Of a stretch of 64,000 nucleotides of DNA, positions 37,410-47,311 are shown piece by piece. A program made the position numbers and the translations under genes. The first letter of the stretch is position 1. Each line of letters starts with the position of its first letter. Source of the DNA: Natrinema ejinorense (GTDB lineage Archaea > Halobacteriota > Halobacteria > Halobacteriales > Natrialbaceae); the NCBI RefSeq assembly GCF_002494345.1, contig NZ_NXNI01000001.1, forward strand, positions 1 through 64,000, written 5' to 3'. The notes under the pieces were generated by a model. The model saw only the letters and a list, made by a program, of their open reading frames with translations, did no database searches and had not been told where the DNA came from.

Positions 37410-37486
37410 TCGCCTTCCCCTGTCGTTCGTTTTGTGCCCTGTGTTGTAACCGTACCCACTCTGTACGCCGGACTGTCCATATTCTG

Positions 37487-37510
37487 TCTCCAATACAGGA
37501 GAAAAGTATT
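37487..37510 (+). promoter_or_regulatory. Small dyad next to TATA of the toxin-antitoxin pair
   Basis: TCTCC (37487-37491) and GGAGA (37498-37502) form a short dyad with a 6-base centre. It directly precedes an AT-rich aaaagtattt (37502-37511), which is the likely TATA box about 28 bases before the antitoxin ATG. A position touching the TATA box suits autoregulation by an antitoxin-toxin complex; this is inference. Confidence 0.35.
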
Positions 37511-37536
37511 TCCAGTGGAATCCGCTACTACTGCGT

Positions 37537-37815
37537 ATGAGTACGTCGGTCAAAGTCACCGACCGGACGAAGTCCCATCTCGAGGAACTCCAGGCCGAGA
37601 TCCGCCTCGAGACGGGGACGAACGTGACGCAACAGGAATTGCTCGAGAGAATCGTCACCGACACGTACGAATCGAAAGACGAACTGATCGATTCCTTCCG
37701 CGATGATCTCGAGCCGCTCTCCGATGACGAAATCGAACGGTGGTTGTCCGGCAGTTCGGACTGGGGCGTCGAAACGACCGAAGACGAGATCGATGCGGTA
37801 CTGTACGGCGAATGA
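37537..37815 (+). CDS. VapB-like antitoxin
   Basis: A 92-residue acidic protein. The N-terminal part, VKVTDRTKSHLEELQAEIRL, resembles a ribbon-helix-helix DNA-binding module. The C-terminal half (DDLEPLSDDEIERWLSG, then TTEDEIDAVLYG) is the flexible acidic region that usually wraps around the toxin. The stop overlaps the start of a PIN-domain gene by 4 bases, the classical VapBC arrangement. It should neutralise that toxin and repress the operon. Confidence 0.82.
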   Translation: MSTSVKVTDRTKSHLEELQAEIRLETGTNVTQQELLERIVTDTYESKDELIDSFRDDLEPLSDDEIERWLSGSSDWGVETTEDEIDAVLYGE

Positions 37816-38264
37816 GTCTCCTCATCGATACCGGAGTTTTCGTCGCTGTTCAGAACGAACGTGACGAACACCACGACGCAGCGACGAACGCATTGGAAGC
37901 CGCGTTGACCGGTGAGTTCGGTGCACTATATACAAACGATTACGTGTACGACGAAGCGGTGACGCTCACCCGAATGCGGACGGACAGTCACCGTGAAGCA
38001 CGGACTATCGGCGATCGGATCGCCGGACGCGGTCCGTTTCCCGATCGGATCGAGGTGCTGTTCGTCTCCGACGATCGATTCGAACAAACGGTACGCGTTT
38101 TCGAACGCTACGACGACCACCACCTCAGCTTCACAGACGCGAGCCTCGTTGCGCTCGTCGAAAACGGTGATCTCGATGCCGTTCTCAGCTTCGACGACGA
38201 TTTCGACGGCCTCATCGATCGGATCGATCCGACAACGATCAGCGAGGACTATAGTAGTCACTGA
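37812..38264 (+). CDS. PIN-domain ribonuclease toxin (VapC-like) ending in a MITE
   Basis: A 150-residue PIN-domain protein. The acidic metal-binding residues are in place: LLIDTGVFVA (Asp6), NDYVYDEAVT (near 43), HLSFTDASLVAL (Asp near 113) and VLSFDDDFDGL (near 132). VapC toxins cleave tRNA or rRNA (family knowledge). The last codons (TAT AGT AGT CAC TGA) lie inside a palindromic repeat that begins at 38249, so the element now provides the C-terminal Tyr-Ser-Ser-His and the stop. Translation is coupled to the antitoxin by a 4-base overlap. Confidence 0.88.
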   Translation: MSLLIDTGVFVAVQNERDEHHDAATNALEAALTGEFGALYTNDYVYDEAVTLTRMRTDSHREARTIGDRIAGRGPFPDRIEVLFVSDDRFEQTVRVFERYDDHHLSFTDASLVALVENGDLDAVLSFDDDFDGLIDRIDPTTISEDYSSH

Positions 38265-40612: not shown

Positions 40613-40800
40613 GTCCAATGACGTGGGTGGCTGTGACTTAATTCTTGTCACACCGCCCAATTCTCGCCCCGACGCTGTCTGCCGAAAACATTCCATCTAT
40701 TCTTAGTTTGTAATAGATTGACATACAATAGATCTCGACGATAGATCAAAAATAATTGTATAGTTGGAAAGACGAAAACAGGCGGGCGTGGTGGCCGCAC

Positions 40801-41673
40801 TTACAGCGGGACAGCGACGAGGTGAAACAGTCCGAGCCACGCATAGCTTCCGACGACGTACCACTCGACGGCATGCCGGACCGTCGTCGGACTGGCGCGG
40901 TTTCTCCCGAACGAGAGCGTCGCGACCAGCGTTCCGGCGAGCAGCAGTATCGGAAGGACGGTCGACGGCAGTCCCCGGTGAAAGAAGCCGAGCAGAATCG
41001 CTACCGAGACGGTGAGACTCACGGCGATTGTCCCCGCGACTGCCGTTCGCGAGAAATCGCGGCCGAGCGAGGCTATGCCGGCCCGTCGGTCACCATCGCT
41101 GTCGAGATACGCACCGATCGTATCGTGGCAAATGTCCCACAACCAAGTCGCAGCGAAGATCGCCGCCAGTCCTGCCGTGAGTCCACCGTAGACGGTCCAT
41201 CCCATCACGCTGAACATCGAAATACTGGTCACCGTCACGAGCGTCGAGATACCGGTGACGTCCAGACGGTTGAAGACGAGCGGGTCCGCGATCAAGATCA
41301 CGTACAGGAGCGTCGCAGCCACGAGAAACGACTGCCCGACGAGCGCCGCCAGTCCCAGTCCGCCGCCGAGCATCGCAGCGCCCATCCAGAACGCCTGCGT
41401 TTTGGTGACTAACCCTGACGGGATCGGACGGTGTGGTTTCTCGATGGCGTCGGATTCGGCGTCGAAATAGTCGTCGTGAGTGAGGATGCTACCGCGGATG
41501 AGGAGCATACTCGCGAACGCAATCCCTGCGGTGAGGTCGACTCCGGCATCAGGGGCGGTAATCGCCAGAGGGAACCCGAACAGAGCCACGTCGATAGCGA
41601 AGTAGCGGATCGGTGTCACCCGATTGAACGTCACGAACGCGCGGAACGCGTCACTTGTCGACGACGTTGACAT
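40801..41673 (-). CDS. UbiA-family prenyltransferase 1 (DGGGP-synthase-like)
   Basis: A 290-residue membrane protein with about eight helices. Both Asp-rich diphosphate/Mg motifs of UbiA enzymes are visible: HDDYFDAESD near residue 66 and DSDGDRRAGIASLGRDFS near 192. The segment HRPIPSGLVTKTQA after the first motif resembles digeranylgeranylglyceryl-phosphate synthase, so a polyprenyl-transferring lipid enzyme is plausible; the acceptor is unknown. Its start overlaps the upstream phosphoribosyltransferase gene by 23 bases, so the two are translationally coupled. The downstream side is AT-rich with no further gene. Confidence 0.88.
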   Translation of the reverse strand: MSTSSTSDAFRAFVTFNRVTPIRYFAIDVALFGFPLAITAPDAGVDLTAGIAFASMLLIRGSILTHDDYFDAESDAIEKPHRPIPSGLVTKTQAFWMGAAMLGGGLGLAALVGQSFLVAATLLYVILIADPLVFNRLDVTGISTLVTVTSISMFSVMGWTVYGGLTAGLAAIFAATWLWDICHDTIGAYLDSDGDRRAGIASLGRDFSRTAVAGTIAVSLTVSVAILLGFFHRGLPSTVLPILLLAGTLVATLSFGRNRASPTTVRHAVEWYVVGSYAWLGLFHLVAVPL

Positions 41674-42259
41674 TATCTCCCTCGATTTCGATAGCGATCG
41701 ATGTCGTTACGTCGACTCCAGTTTCCTCGGCGACGCGATCGACGCCGTTTTTTCTTGTCTTTTCGACGATACAGTGGGCTTCTTCAACCGTCGCGCCCGC
41801 CTTCTCGACGGCCTCGATCATCGCGATCATCGTCCCACCGGTACTGATCGTATCGTCGACAATCGTGACCGAGTCGCCGGGTTCGATGCCGTTCAGGTAG
41901 AGATTTCCAGAAAAGTACTCGGAATCGATGTCGACCGCCGACTGACGGTCGGCATTTAGATCGTACGTGTACCAGCGAGCGACCGCGAGCGGCAGCGAGT
42001 ACTCTCGCGCGATCAACACCCCGAAGGGTAACCCCTTGTCCTCTTCGACTGCAAGTTTATCGACATCGAACGCCCCTTCCCTCGAAAGCAGCGTTTTCGC
42101 TGCCTCGAGCGTCCGCGGTTGCAGTGCTGGGAGTTGGTCGGTCAACTGATTGACCGTCGTCGCGTGTTCGCCTGAGTGGGTTACCCCGGCGTCCTCGTAG
42201 ATCCCCGCAATTTGCTCCGCAGCCGCTTCTATACTCATTTCGGCGTGTTTTGTTGACAT
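41651..42259 (-). CDS. Phosphoribosyltransferase, purine/orotate type
   Basis: A 202-residue type I phosphoribosyltransferase. The PRPP-binding loop is VTIVDDTISTGGTM near residue 130, with SGNLYLNGIEPGDS before it, as in archaeal Apt/Hpt-like proteins. An N-terminal helical part (SIEAAAEQIAGIYEDAG) precedes the core. It may be a base-salvage enzyme, a regulator of the GfcR/PurR type (though no helix-turn-helix is apparent), or a pathway enzyme. The 23-base overlap with a UbiA prenyltransferase argues for a joint pathway role. ATG 42259 is used; an alternative ATG at 42238 lies 7 codons inside. A 207-base AT-rich region separates it from the divergent P450. Confidence 0.82.
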   Translation of the reverse strand: MSTKHAEMSIEAAAEQIAGIYEDAGVTHSGEHATTVNQLTDQLPALQPRTLEAAKTLLSREGAFDVDKLAVEEDKGLPFGVLIAREYSLPLAVARWYTYDLNADRQSAVDIDSEYFSGNLYLNGIEPGDSVTIVDDTISTGGTMIAMIEAVEKAGATVEEAHCIVEKTRKNGVDRVAEETGVDVTTSIAIEIEGDNVNVVDK

Positions 42260-42466
42260 TACGTTAAGACTTAAACTAGTTTTGATTAAGTATTTTTCTA
42301 TATAATTCTATTAATTTGAATCAATGTATGAGCTTATCGAGATGGTTTGGTCGGCAACTGGTGAGCTGCCATTCCACCGGATCTCCGTCGGTCGTTATAA
42401 TACATAATATAAAATCGAAATAATTATGCAATTATTAGAAGTGGCCTCGATGAGAACTGTGTATCG
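42260..42466. promoter_or_regulatory. AT-rich divergent promoter region (PRTase / P450)
   Basis: A 207-bp intergenic region, strongly AT-rich against the GC-rich genome. It contains long A/T runs such as tatttttctatataattc (42289-42308) and tacataatataaaatcg (about 42401). Several TATA-like boxes face both ways, so exact promoters cannot be assigned. Such composition is common at recently acquired haloarchaeal gene blocks. Confidence 0.55.
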
Positions 42467-43864
42467 ATGAGGAGGTCACACTTGAGGCGAAATACGGAAG
42501 CTGCAGCGAACGTCGCGGAGCGACCGCCTGGACCCGACGGATTACCCGTCATCGGAAGTACCTTGTCGTTCGTCCGTAATCCGCTCGACTTCGTCCGATC
42601 AATCGGTGAGTACGGAGATGTCGTGAGCTACGTGGCATTCGGTCGTGAGTTCGTGGCGATTTCGGATCCCGAACTCGTCGAGACTGTTCTTGTTTCTCGT
42701 GACGATGAGTTCTGGAAGGGGGAATTCGAGAGTAGGTTCGGTGACCTCGTTGCCCCGGACGGCGTCTTCTATGCCGAGGGTAGCGACTGGCGGCGGCAAC
42801 GACGTCTTCTGCAGTCACTGTTCACACCGAAACGGATCGAATCATATGCGGCCGATATGGTCGGCGAAACGGTTCGAATGGTCGAGGGATGGACTGACGG
42901 AACGGTCGTGAACGTTCGGGAGGTGCTATCCACGTTTACCTTGGGTGTGCTGACTCGATCGTTGTTCGATCTCGACCTTAAGGGCGAACGCGCGGACGTA
43001 GTCGTCCGAATGGTGGATGCCCTCGCCGAGTACGTCGACTCGGAGATGCTCGGCCTTCGGTCCGTACTTCCGTCGTGGGTGCCGAGCAAAGCGGAACGGA
43101 AGTTCGATCGAGCGATGGCCGACCTTGACGCTCTCGTCGAATCGCTCGTCCACGAACACCGCGAGTCGGAGGGAGAGAGCGACGATCTGCTGTCGCTGCT
43201 CGCGACGGCCGAATACCCCGACGGCACGACGCCCACACCGAGCGAGGTGTCCGATCAGCTCGTTCAGTTCCTCGTCGCCGGACACGAGACGAGCGCGACC
43301 GCGCTGACTTATACCTGCTGGTTACTCGCCAACGATCCCGAGATGCAGCGTCGACTCGTCCGCGAAATCGAGACCGTCTGTGGTGACCAGAACCCGACGA
43401 TCGATGACCTGGGTTCGCTGACGCTCTCGGAAGCCGTCATCAACGAAGCGATGCGTCTGTACCCGCCGTTTCCCTTCATTCACCGCCAGCCCCACGAACC
43501 GACGACGCTCGGCGGGTATCGAATTCCGCCGGAGTCTACGCTTCAGTTGCCGTTGTCCTCCGTTCATTTGGACGACCGCTGGTGGCACAACGCCGAGTCG
43601 TTTCGCCCGGAGCGGTGGCTCCCTGAGGCAGAGCAGACCGGTGACTGGAACTGCGACAGGCCCGAGTATGCGTACTTCCCGTTCGGCGGCGGACCGCGCC
43701 ACTGTATCGGCATGCGATTCGCCATGACCGAGTTACAACTCTCCCTCGCGGCGATGATTCGTCGAATCGAATTCGAACCCGTTACGGAGACTCTCGATCC
43801 CACGTGGAAGGTTTCCCTTGATCCGGGACCGGTCGAACTTCGGATCCGTACCCGCGACCGGTAG
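42467..43864 (+). CDS. Cytochrome P450
   Basis: A 465-residue soluble P450 monooxygenase. It has the proline-rich start (PPGPDGLPVIGS), the I-helix oxygen-binding motif AGHETSA near residue 270, the ExxR motif in EAMRLYPP near 327, and the haem-binding loop FPFGGGPRHCIG with thiolate Cys413. The closest families I know are haloarchaeal CYP174-type and bacterial fatty-acid or terpene hydroxylases. No dedicated ferredoxin or reductase gene adjoins. It lies between two UbiA prenyltransferase genes and is convergent with the second (61-base gap), so an oxidised isoprenoid is a reasonable product guess. Confidence 0.94.
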   Translation: MRRSHLRRNTEAAANVAERPPGPDGLPVIGSTLSFVRNPLDFVRSIGEYGDVVSYVAFGREFVAISDPELVETVLVSRDDEFWKGEFESRFGDLVAPDGVFYAEGSDWRRQRRLLQSLFTPKRIESYAADMVGETVRMVEGWTDGTVVNVREVLSTFTLGVLTRSLFDLDLKGERADVVVRMVDALAEYVDSEMLGLRSVLPSWVPSKAERKFDRAMADLDALVESLVHEHRESEGESDDLLSLLATAEYPDGTTPTPSEVSDQLVQFLVAGHETSATALTYTCWLLANDPEMQRRLVREIETVCGDQNPTIDDLGSLTLSEAVINEAMRLYPPFPFIHRQPHEPTTLGGYRIPPESTLQLPLSSVHLDDRWWHNAESFRPERWLPEAEQTGDWNCDRPEYAYFPFGGGPRHCIGMRFAMTELQLSLAAMIRRIEFEPVTETLDPTWKVSLDPGPVELRIRTRDR

Positions 43865-43925
43865 CGATCTCGCGATTCGGACCGCTGCCGATCCGGCCGA
43901 AGGCGATTACGGCCGTGCGACGGGA

Positions 43926-44846
43926 TCAGGAGAAATAAAACGCGGTCGCAAACGAGACGAAAAACACTGCGTTGATGATCGTGATAGCGCGGTCCGTGGT
44001 CTCTCCTCCGTCCCACGACCAGAGAATATACGATCCGAACCCACCAAGAAGGGCGAAAAACGGGACGACGTAGTAGACGTCGAACAGTATCGGAGTGAGA
44101 ACGAACGTCGACGGGAGCGCGACGACCAGTATCTTGGTGAGTCGATCCTTGCCGTACCGGACGACGAGATTATCGATACCGGCCTTCGCATCGTGTTCTG
44201 CGTCTTTGAGGTCCTGATACGAGATCGTGAGTATAATTACGAGCGCTAATACCGTTGCTATCTGCCACGCGTCGGCCGGCGGGGAGGTTCCGACGACCGC
44301 ACTGCCGAGAATCACGGAAAGGAATCCACCGATACCGAAACAGAGTAGACTCGATATCGCTCCGTTTTTCAGACGGATTGGAGGGACCGTGTATATCATC
44401 GCTGCGAGAACCCAGGCCAGGGCACTCAGGAATCCAAGGGAGTTGACGGTGGCACCGTACATGACAGCGAATACCATCAACGTGACTCCGACTACGATCG
44501 CTTCGCGCTCCGAAATGAGTCCCTGCGTGGTGGCTCTGTCGGCGTTTGCCTCCTTGTCGATCTCTTTGTCGGTGATATCGTTTATGAACCATTGACCCCA
44601 GTGGGCGAGCGTCATCGCGACGGTCACGCCAACGAGATTACTCCGCTCTACCTCCTCGAGGCCGATCGGTTTCATCGCAACCACGATTCCGACCCCGGTC
44701 AACGCGATCCACGCGAGCGTGATCGGGAGCATCTTCGATATCCGCCGAATCGTGAGCAGCGCCGTTTCCGTCGACCAGATCAGGTAAACCCCGGTGACCG
44801 CCACGAACGCACCGCTGAGTATCGCCTGATTCGACATTTCTTCCAT
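43926..44846 (-). CDS. UbiA-family prenyltransferase 2
   Basis: A 306-residue membrane protein with eight to nine helices. The first Asp-rich motif is NDITDKEIDKEANADRAT near residue 90, and the second is DLKDAEHDAKAG near 212; both are needed to bind the prenyl diphosphate. The sequence differs clearly from the other UbiA protein in this block, so the two probably use different acceptors or prenyl donors. It is downstream of the methyltransferase gene in the same direction, but a 64-base AT-rich gap with TATA-like sequence (aatatatatttt on the minus strand) suggests its own promoter. ATG 44846 is used; ATG 44837 is also possible. Confidence 0.88.
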   Translation of the reverse strand: MEEMSNQAILSGAFVAVTGVYLIWSTETALLTIRRISKMLPITLAWIALTGVGIVVAMKPIGLEEVERSNLVGVTVAMTLAHWGQWFINDITDKEIDKEANADRATTQGLISEREAIVVGVTLMVFAVMYGATVNSLGFLSALAWVLAAMIYTVPPIRLKNGAISSLLCFGIGGFLSVILGSAVVGTSPPADAWQIATVLALVIILTISYQDLKDAEHDAKAGIDNLVVRYGKDRLTKILVVALPSTFVLTPILFDVYYVVPFFALLGGFGSYILWSWDGGETTDRAITIINAVFFVSFATAFYFS

Positions 44847-44910
44847 ACTTCAGTATAATAAATTAAAATATATATTATTAATGATTTCCGCTGTGCGGTC
44901 GCAGTCCGAC

Positions 44911-45495
44911 TCAGCCCTGGTTTCCCATGTCTTTGAGAAGTCTACGGAAGGTCCTCTCGTCGACGAATCGGGGAACATCCTCGCAGTACTCCTCGTACTC
45001 GCTCCCGTACTGTTCGGCCAACCACGCTTCTTCGGGGCGAGGGTGAATCCACAGCCAGACGATACAAAGCGCCAACAGCGGAACGAGTAGTTTCGCCGCC
45101 GCCGTCGCTATCAGTCCCACGGCGATCCCAATGAACCCGACGTACTGTGGATTTCGGGTGTATCGGTACGCACCGCCAGTGTACAACTGGCCCTCGAGTC
45201 CGAGCGTTGCGGTTCGAATGTAATACGCAGAGACGGCGGTGAAGACGACACTCGCCGCGAGAACGATGCCACCGAGGTACCTGATCCACAGCGGCACTGC
45301 GAGTGTCCCACTGTTCAGAATTGTAATCGTCAGGACCGAACCGGTAAAGATCGTACTCGCCGTCCAATACGTCCAGAAACGCCAATCCCTGTCGCCCGGG
45401 GGCCAGAACGAAAAGGAGTCGCTGACTACCGTTCCGACGATGCCGACGAGTAGCACTACTTGTGCGCCGAGCCCAGCGGCAAATACTCTATGCAT
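44911..45495 (-). CDS. Isoprenylcysteine carboxyl methyltransferase / PEMT-like membrane methyltransferase
   Basis: A 194-residue membrane protein with four to five helices. The C-terminal SAM-binding pattern of the ICMT/PEMT group is present: GAYRYTRNPQYVGFIGI near residue 105, followed by the helical hairpin and RPEEAWLAEQYGSEYEEYCED near 155. The enzymes of this group methylate membrane-bound isoprenoid or lipid substrates. Archaeal homologues have no known prenylcysteine substrate, so the target is unknown. It lies upstream of the second UbiA gene and beside AT-rich flanks. Confidence 0.85.
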   Translation of the reverse strand: MHRVFAAGLGAQVVLLVGIVGTVVSDSFSFWPPGDRDWRFWTYWTASTIFTGSVLTITILNSGTLAVPLWIRYLGGIVLAASVVFTAVSAYYIRTATLGLEGQLYTGGAYRYTRNPQYVGFIGIAVGLIATAAAKLLVPLLALCIVWLWIHPRPEEAWLAEQYGSEYEEYCEDVPRFVDERTFRRLLKDMGNQG

Positions 45496-45563
45496 CCTTA
45501 GATATTAGTTAATAGGTTGAATAAATAAACTCTTTGTATTTAGCAACAATTACGCCTGCGTCG

Positions 45564-45707
45564 CCGTATTCACTGTGGGTCGTGTGTGAGTACAACGCCC
45601 CCGGTACGTCCTACCGGTTTCGAGTAACGAACCGGCTCGTCGAAGGAGCAATCTCGGCTACAGCTAACCTTCAAATCTCCAATAGGAACCTACGTAACGT
45701 CCACTAG
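45564..45707 (+). pseudogene. Remnant of a glycosyltransferase-like N-terminus
   Basis: A 47-codon stretch reads SLWVVCEYNAPGTSYRFRVT followed by NRLVEGA, with a stop at 45705. The pattern EYNAPGTSYRFRV is typical of the first strand and helix of some GT4-like glycosyltransferases. No start codon, promoter or continuation in another frame was found. It lies in the 376-base gap between the methyltransferase and cmi4, at the likely edge of the accessory block. Confidence 0.45.
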
Positions 45708-45871
45708 TTTTTCAGGGGATGGCGTACTCAAAAATGAACTGACACGATCGCCGACGGGATCGCGACACCAGCGCGCGTTCCTGGTCCCGGTCAAACTCCG
45801 ACCTTGTCCGCTCCCTTCCCAAGGCAAAACGGCAACAGGCTTAAATAGACTCCCGTCTGGAGTGTCCACTC

Positions 45872-46561: not shown

Positions 46562-46624
46562 TACGACTGCTTGCACCGCCGTTCCGAGCGCGACTTCTTA
46601 TACGAAGCCGCGGCCAGACGGATC

Positions 46625-47311
46625 GTGACCCAGACTCCCGTCTCGTTTAGCGACCTGCGGACCGCCGCCTACTGTCTCCGGAAGTGTTACTATCAGCAGC
46701 GACTCCCGGCCGAGGATCGCGAACCGCCACCCGAGGTCGACTCGATCCGCGCGCTCGAGCCCCGGTACGAATCGCTGCTCGAGGCTCCACCGGGCGACCT
46801 CGACGCCGAACCGATCGCCGTCCCGTCGGTTCGGTACCGCGAGCGGCTGGCGGCGACCAGACGGCGACTCGCGGATGCGGGCCAGTGGGACCGTCTCCGG
46901 AACCCTCGCGGACGGGACGTCCTCGCAACCGGCCGCCACTGTCGCGGGATCGTCCACAAGGTGGTTCCCGATCCGCTCGAGCCGGCGCTGGTGTCCTCGG
47001 GAGCGCCACCCGAGAACGGCGTCTGGGAGTCCCAATCGGTTCACGCGGTCGCGGCCGCGAAGGCGTTGGCCTGGGAACACAAGGAGTCGGTCGAGCGGGC
47101 CTGGCTCGAGTATCCGGCCTACGGCGTGATCCGTTCGATAGAGCTGACGACGCGACGGAAGGCGCAGTATCGGAGCGCGTTGCGGGCAGTTCGCGAGTTA
47201 GATGGCCCGCCGGCGCGGACGACTAACCGCTCGAAGTGCGAGTCCTGCGAGTTCACGGCCGAGTGTGGGGTCAAGACGCGGACGCTGCGGTCGTTGCTCG
47301 GGTTCGGATGA
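46625..47311 (+). CDS. Cas4-like / RecB-family protein, probably nuclease-inactive
   Basis: A 228-residue protein with the Cas4/PD-(D/E)XK outline. It has an N-terminal Cys pair in YCLRKCYYQ (Cys17, Cys21) and a C-terminal cluster CESCEFTAEC (Cys205, Cys208, Cys214). These four or five cysteines could hold an FeS cluster, as in Cas4. The catalytic aspartate of GxxD is His in GIVHKV, and the expected E-x-K strand reads PALVSSG, so cleavage activity is doubtful. No CRISPR array or other cas gene is in the window; it pairs with cmi4 as is usual in haloarchaea. GTG 46625 is chosen; an extension to TTG 46571 is possible but less natural. Confidence 0.75.
   Translation: MTQTPVSFSDLRTAAYCLRKCYYQQRLPAEDREPPPEVDSIRALEPRYESLLEAPPGDLDAEPIAVPSVRYRERLAATRRRLADAGQWDRLRNPRGRDVLATGRHCRGIVHKVVPDPLEPALVSSGAPPENGVWESQSVHAVAAAKALAWEHKESVERAWLEYPAYGVIRSIELTTRRKAQYRSALRAVRELDGPPARTTNRSKCESCEFTAECGVKTRTLRSLLGFG

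Follow-up and report, generated by a model that had tools for sequence, protein, structure and literature searches.

What do five adjoining genes make in the haloarchaeon Natrinema ejinorense, two of which encode divergent UbiA-family membrane proteins? The genes form a block within the window, meaning here the whole stretch of DNA analysed (positions 1-64,000 of NZ_NXNI01000001.1), which lies on the largest contig of the 4.48 Mb genome. Judging from sequence, we read the block as a rare, horizontally exchanged haloarchaeal island for a short specialised-isoprenoid pathway, with a probability of roughly 0.55. A preliminary description, made from the letters alone, had located five open reading frames (ORFs) and named their families; both the positions and the Pfam families (PF01040 twice, PF00156, PF00067 and PF04191) agree with ours. 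The block comprises the following features.

40801-41673, minus strand: UbiA1 (PF01040, E 5e-27), with motifs DDYFDAESD and DSDGD
41651-42259, minus strand: adenine-phosphoribosyltransferase-like type I phosphoribosyltransferase (PRT; PF00156), with the phosphoribosyl pyrophosphate (PRPP) loop IVDDTISTGGT
42260-42466, no strand: divergent promoter region in the gap between the PRT and P450 genes, AT-rich (34% GC) by base composition
42467-43864, plus strand: cytochrome P450 (PF00067, E 5e-85), with haem Cys413, AGHET and ExxR
43926-44846, minus strand: UbiA2, a predicted membrane prenyltransferase (PF01040, E 1e-29), with R35, N89, D93, D97, Y152, K160, D215 and D219
44911-45495, minus strand: integral-membrane S-adenosylmethionine (SAM)-dependent methyltransferase of the isoprenylcysteine carboxyl methyltransferase/phosphatidylethanolamine methyltransferase (ICMT/PEMT) type (PF04191, 39.1 bits, cut-off 25)
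40715-45830, no strand: discrete island of ~5.1 kb, present or absent as a unit when compared with the empty sites of relatives

The block as a unit

The preliminary description treated the genes as one block and named co-occurrence in other genomes as the check. The block is indeed a real unit, by co-occurrence and by a clean empty site. A congener (G193), Natronolimnohabitans innermongolicus JCM 12255 and Natronolimnohabitans sp. A-GB9 carry all five genes at this site with their order preserved. A genome of the same species (G005) lacks the block; its flanks are ~95% identical to the window up to 40714 and from 45831, with 36 bp between them. The matching empty site is also present in G307, G096 and G143. 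In addition, UbiA1, PRT and UbiA2 are linked in a second, distant lineage, described below. Synteny in four genomes, this second linkage and the clean empty site together argue that the block is more than a chance assembly. The full set of five families occurs in Natrinema and Natronolimnohabitans but only there, and the partners differ elsewhere.

Between syntenic copies, dN/dS is 0.13-0.22, which indicates purifying selection on each of the five genes. The 23-bp overlap of UbiA1 and PRT (41651-41673) is found also in G193 and in both Natronolimnohabitans copies. The five genes have a lower GC content at third codon positions (GC3) than the flanking genes (0.68-0.76 versus 0.84-0.86), a comparison that had been proposed earlier. 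The claim that all intergenic regions of the block are AT-rich, unlike the rest of the window, holds for 40697-40800, 42260-42466 and 44847-44910 (39, 34 and 33% GC, respectively) but fails for the gap at 43865-43925, which has 69% GC; the other gaps of the window have 50-75% GC.

Synonymous divergence is uneven between the two UbiA genes. For UbiA1, dS is 0.25 to Natronolimnohabitans versus 0.41 to the congener G193; for UbiA2, it is 0.16 to G193 versus 0.54 to Natronolimnohabitans. The pattern therefore suggests recombination within the block (window 40801-44846) between lineages, here of different genera. Insertion of a mobile element carrying its own recombinase was rejected, as no such gene is among the five.

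Two UbiA proteins with different active sites

UbiA2 possesses a complete set of prenyltransferase active-site residues. It matches PF01040 with 103.6 bits (cut-off 34.2), and in an alignment of nine homologues the Asn and Asp residues of motif I, the Asp residues of motif II, the catalytic Tyr, the diphosphate-binding Lys and an Arg are invariant. Residue roles follow the description of AfUbiA (PMC4106721); the Arg, invariant in the family, may correspond to R22 of AfUbiA. The AlphaFold2 model of UbiA2 (pLDDT 88.6) displays the UbiA fold and superimposes on AfUbiA (4tq3) with a Z score of 24.5 and a root mean square deviation of 3.2 over 258 aligned residues. AfUbiA and the archaeal digeranylgeranylglyceryl phosphate (DGGGP) synthase (6m31) share both fold and catalytic residues with UbiA2, but the identity over the structural alignment is 16-19%, and UbiA2 forms its own group far under the DGGGP synthase cut-off.

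The preliminary description had also raised a polyprenyl-phosphoribose product. A synthesis of the decaprenyl-phosphoribose (DPPR) kind, serving glycan or lipid decoration, would account for a UbiA-family protein next to a PRPP-binding gene product, and one UbiA branch uses PRPP (PMC11127046). The scores point elsewhere: as a DPPR synthase, UbiA1 reaches 25 bits where the PRK12324 cut-off is 234, UbiA2 does not appear among the matches to that model, and the UbiA2 fold matches DPPR synthase (8j8j) with a Z score of 17.0, weaker than the 24.5 against AfUbiA, so that UbiA2 is closest to ordinary prenyltransferases. Moreover, the block holds no phosphatase or glycosyltransferase, and DPPR synthases work without a separate soluble PRT. 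The identity was rejected for both proteins, and we regard DPPR-like synthesis as very improbable.

UbiA1 also belongs to the family (PF01040, 95.1 bits, cut-off 34.2). Both UbiA proteins had been said to keep their two Asp-rich motifs. UbiA2 has both in canonical form, but motif I of UbiA1, DDYFDAESD, contains Asp in place of Asn. In all four UbiA1 homologues of the alignment, the Asp ligands are kept, the Tyr column is occupied by Asp and the Lys column by Asp or Asn; the catalytic Tyr is present in all six host UbiA proteins of that alignment. Because the Asn of motif I and the catalytic Tyr and Lys are replaced, UbiA1 may have a remodelled active site that catalyses a different reaction, as judged from an alignment of distant sequences. 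Its predicted model, built from only four sequences, has a pLDDT of 40.

UbiA1 could in principle be a UbiA-type terpene cyclase whose product is turned into a methyl ester by the P450 and the methyltransferase. Such logic exists in the tps1 and tps2 clusters of Antrodia cinnamomea, where a UbiA-type bisabolene synthase, a P450 and a methyltransferase yield a terpene methyl ester (PMC9835599). The loss of the prenyltransferase Tyr and Lys in UbiA1, and the terpene P450s among the nearest models of the window P450, would fit. The motif I signature of the UbiA-type terpene cyclases Fma-TC, EriG and Tps1A is NxxxG/AxxxD (PMC9835599), which neither protein has: UbiA1 reads DDYFDAESD (DDxxDxxxD) and UbiA2 NDITDKEID (NDxxDxxxD), a comparison by motifs only. 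The Antrodia clusters resemble the block in using a P450 and a methyltransferase to tailor the product of a UbiA-superfamily enzyme, but they are fungal, and no phosphoribosyltransferase is described in them. No work on UbiA-type terpene synthesis in archaea was found in the open-licence literature. We consider a terpene cyclase unlikely.

Neither protein is a core enzyme of the host. The host possesses its own haem O synthase (CtaB), DGGGP synthase, MenA and lycopene-elongase-type UbiA, all above the NCBIfam cut-offs, and UbiA1 and UbiA2 score far under the cut-offs of these four families. Since separate host proteins thus serve haem O, archaeol lipid, menaquinone and bacterioruberin, a core lipid, quinone, haem or carotenoid identity was ruled out. 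The outcome that would have overturned the preliminary description, a place in ether-lipid or menaquinone synthesis, is therefore not what the scores indicate. The motif II region of UbiA1 looks similar by eye to that of lycopene-elongase-type UbiA (PRK12875), a member of which, UbiA3, occurs in the Haloferax larsenii locus, but UbiA1 has no score to the model and the host copy lies elsewhere. EboC was likewise rejected (UbiA1 56.7 and UbiA2 44.4 bits, NF035940 cut-off 250). Like the block, the ebo clusters (PMC5133447) have spread horizontally and include a divergent UbiA, but they contain neither P450 nor PRT, and no eboA/B/D/E/F-like gene is among the five. In a tree with the host UbiA proteins, UbiA1 and UbiA2 form two separate groups; branches are long and deeper placement lacks resolution.

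Partners in the block and in related loci

Homologues of UbiA2 (E 1e-20 or better) occur in 6 of 292 haloarchaeal genomes and UbiA1 in 4 of 391. Orthologues of the PRT (at least 60% identity) are found only in UbiA1 genomes, beside UbiA1, and the next matches have ~30% identity. Relatives of the P450 (50-62%) and of the methyltransferase (35-44%) are spread over many genera. UbiA1, UbiA2 and the PRT thus appear specific to the cluster, and the P450 and methyltransferase recruited from common haloarchaeal stock.

The PRT scores 38.4 bits against PF00156 (cut-off 26.3) and 183.7 bits against adenine phosphoribosyltransferase PRK12560, just under the equivalog cut-off of 188. Its PRPP loop, noted before, is IVDDTISTGGT in all four orthologues. 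The P450 combines the PF00067 match with ExxR, AGxET and a haem cysteine that is residue 413, as first reported. Among named models, terpene P450s (CYP170A1 and pentalenene oxygenase) come closest to it, and it matches 3dbg with E 1e-50. Its closest relatives (~60% identity) have ferredoxin-like and regulator-like neighbours, as read by eye, and no UbiA nearby. The PF04191 score upholds the assignment of the methyltransferase to the PEMT/ICMT class; it reaches 23.6 bits against PF04140, just under the cut-off of 24, and 32 bits against protein-S-isoprenylcysteine methyltransferase NF040696, under the cut-off of 160. In another haloarchaeon (L109 7997-12243), an ICMT-like gene adjoins two P450s (51% and 43% identical to that of the window) and no UbiA, so the two enzymes may pair on their own. 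When such neighbourhoods were inspected for a clue to the substrate, no isoprenoid gene was noticed around the ICMT-P450 pair in G233.

UbiA2 has different partners in other haloarchaea. H. larsenii links UbiA1, PRT and UbiA2 in another arrangement, and one strain carries this locus on a plasmid of 344 kb. Also at the locus are UbiA3, an alpha/beta hydrolase, a SnoaL-like protein and a member of the geranylgeranyl-reductase family. In Halocatena marina and on a plasmid of Halorussus caseinilyticus, UbiA2 lies in long same-strand runs with genes for an amidohydrolase, methanogenesis marker 12 (TIGR03281), a nucleoside deoxyribosyltransferase (NDT)-like protein, an ABC transporter, a squalene-hopene cyclase (SHC)-like protein with the DxDD motif, an MMPL transporter (the Halocatena copy, which was scored, is HpnN-like) and a polyprenyl-diphosphate synthase. 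The Halorussus run starts with a gene of the inosine monophosphate dehydrogenase (IMPDH)/GMP-reductase family. In the metagenome-assembled genome QS_1_68_20, UbiA2 occurs with marker 12, an NDT-like protein, ABC genes and a pair of SHC-like proteins, one of which carries DxDD where it is expected. In Haloarcula amylolytica and Natrinema mahii, UbiA2 is accompanied by P450s, a class I methyltransferase, an NDT-like protein and marker 12. Marker 12 and SHC-like proteins were located at the following positions.

L018 8197-9243, L019 17162-18148, L079 4275-5300, L028 8847-9821, L118 3953-4978 and L078 10187-11296: marker 12 proteins
L017 14619-16859, L028 2403-4442 and L118 7765-9846: SHC-like proteins with DxDD (SDWDDT)

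The second SHC-like copy of QS_1 (L028 5292-7397) has no DxDD motif. The haloarchaeal DxDD proteins seem to have a signal-like segment at the N-terminus and a membrane segment at the C-terminus. Marker 12 occurs in 4 of 282 haloarchaeal genomes, where UbiA2 and an NDT-like gene are usually its neighbours; in the two copies scanned, the TIGR03281 match falls just under the cut-off.

The islands with UbiA2 and mmp12/NDT genes in H. amylolytica and N. mahii have low GC3 and occupy the same nuoCD-nuoH junction (L018 7662-14530, L019 9430-18148); the two species belong to different families. This position among respiratory genes, the Fe-S membrane oxidoreductase gene adjoining the window block and the resemblance of UbiA2 to AfUbiA, a UBIAD1 homologue, would suit an alternative lipoquinone, in which UbiA1 and UbiA2 prenylate an aromatic head group and the P450 and methyltransferase alter it. 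However, the host has MenA, the island has no head-group genes, the Fe-S gene belongs to the host and is there even where the island is missing, and other UbiA2 loci were not seen near respiratory genes. A modified quinone is quite unlikely.

Each of the seven distinct UbiA2 loci carries a purine- or ribosyl-type gene within ~9 kb, a PRT in two and an NDT-like gene in five. In addition, three loci contain amidohydrolases of the adenosine/S-adenosylhomocysteine (SAH)-deaminase type. These genes, the IMPDH/GMP-reductase gene of Halorussus and the restriction of PRT orthologues to the side of UbiA1 lend indirect support to a ribosyl or purine part of the product. The PRT, or the NDT-like protein in relatives, would ready a nucleobase or nucleotide acceptor, a UbiA would prenylate it, and the P450 and methyltransferase would decorate the chain. 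Against this, the NDT-like matches to PF05014 are under the Pfam cut-off, the amidohydrolases score under every named equivalog cut-off, and the NDT and deaminase genes lie in relatives, not in the window. Nor are we aware of any UbiA with a purine as its prenyl acceptor. Overall, such a pathway is possible, though we do not favour it.

Isoprenoid-purine products do exist and spread as small blocks: tuberculosinyladenosine (TbAd) of mycobacteria is a terpene nucleoside made from a horizontally acquired locus, Rv3376-Rv3378c (PMC11476799). Like the window block, that locus is small, has an unusual GC content, occurs as a whole or not at all and concerns isoprenoid chemistry. It differs in encoding a tuberculosinyl-diphosphate synthase and a tuberculosinyl transferase and in having no UbiA, P450 or PRT; its product has a purine part, which for the window block is only proposed. 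No gene for a terpenyl-diphosphate synthase or cyclase is present in the window block, the SHC-like genes being confined to relatives' loci. By the features tested, neither the TbAd locus nor the Antrodia clusters is a relative of the block.

Proposed pathway and its meaning

In the specialised-isoprenoid pathway that we favour, UbiA2 would ionise a host prenyl diphosphate and, in the membrane, pass its prenyl group on to an acceptor, as suggested by its complete active site and by the prenyl-diphosphate synthase genes linked to it in relatives. UbiA1, with its altered pocket, would catalyse a further, unusual reaction on a prenyl or diphosphate group. From the chemistry of their families, the P450 would oxidise the isoprenoid and the ICMT/PEMT-type enzyme would O-methylate it, giving a methyl ester or ether; the Antrodia clusters are a precedent for tailoring of this kind. 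The PRT would act as partner of UbiA1 and would most likely provide or use up a purine-like acceptor bearing a phosphoribosyl group; this is the weakest step. Of the product first envisaged, the prenylated, oxidised and methylated compound is consistent with UbiA2 relatives in isoprenoid loci and its purine part has the indirect support given above, but polyprenyl-phosphoribose is not supported.

Several points weigh against this pathway. The block itself contains no terpene cyclase or prenyl-diphosphate synthase. Both the P450 and the methyltransferase belong to families that are common in haloarchaea, and the H. larsenii locus has neither. The PRT could be a plain purine salvage enzyme, and UbiA1 could be inactive or of other chemistry. 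A broader proposal is that this block belongs to a family of haloarchaeal islands whose products are conjugates of an isoprenoid with a purine or a ribosyl group, in effect archaeal terpenyl nucleosides, with membrane UbiA enzymes joining the two halves. UbiA2 would then be the shared joining enzyme, with PRT/UbiA1 or NDT/mmp12 as alternative acceptor modules. We hold this proposal to be doubtful.

The surroundings contain two further features. Near the island, an ORF at window 46571-47311 has a weak Cas4-like match (TIGR00372, E 1e-5, under the cut-off) and is conserved in relatives. Window 37410-38264 is a low-GC spot with short ORFs, one of which reads like a PIN-domain toxin; a related genome has an antitoxin-like ORF at the matching place, and the spot is poorly conserved across strains.

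To our knowledge, few archaeal small-molecule pathways have been described outside carotenoids, quinones and membrane lipids. In keeping with the preliminary description, no described pathway with this gene set was found in the open-licence literature. The related loci place methanogenesis-marker-12 proteins in haloarchaea. They also tie UbiA enzymes to SHC-like DxDD proteins, prenyl-diphosphate synthases and MMPL/HpnN-like transporters; a 2019 review reported no known sterol or hopanoid synthesis in archaea (PMC6770870). If the reading is true, the island would represent a compact, naturally present or absent isoprenoid pathway in culturable haloarchaea, with an empty-site partner of the same species for comparison.

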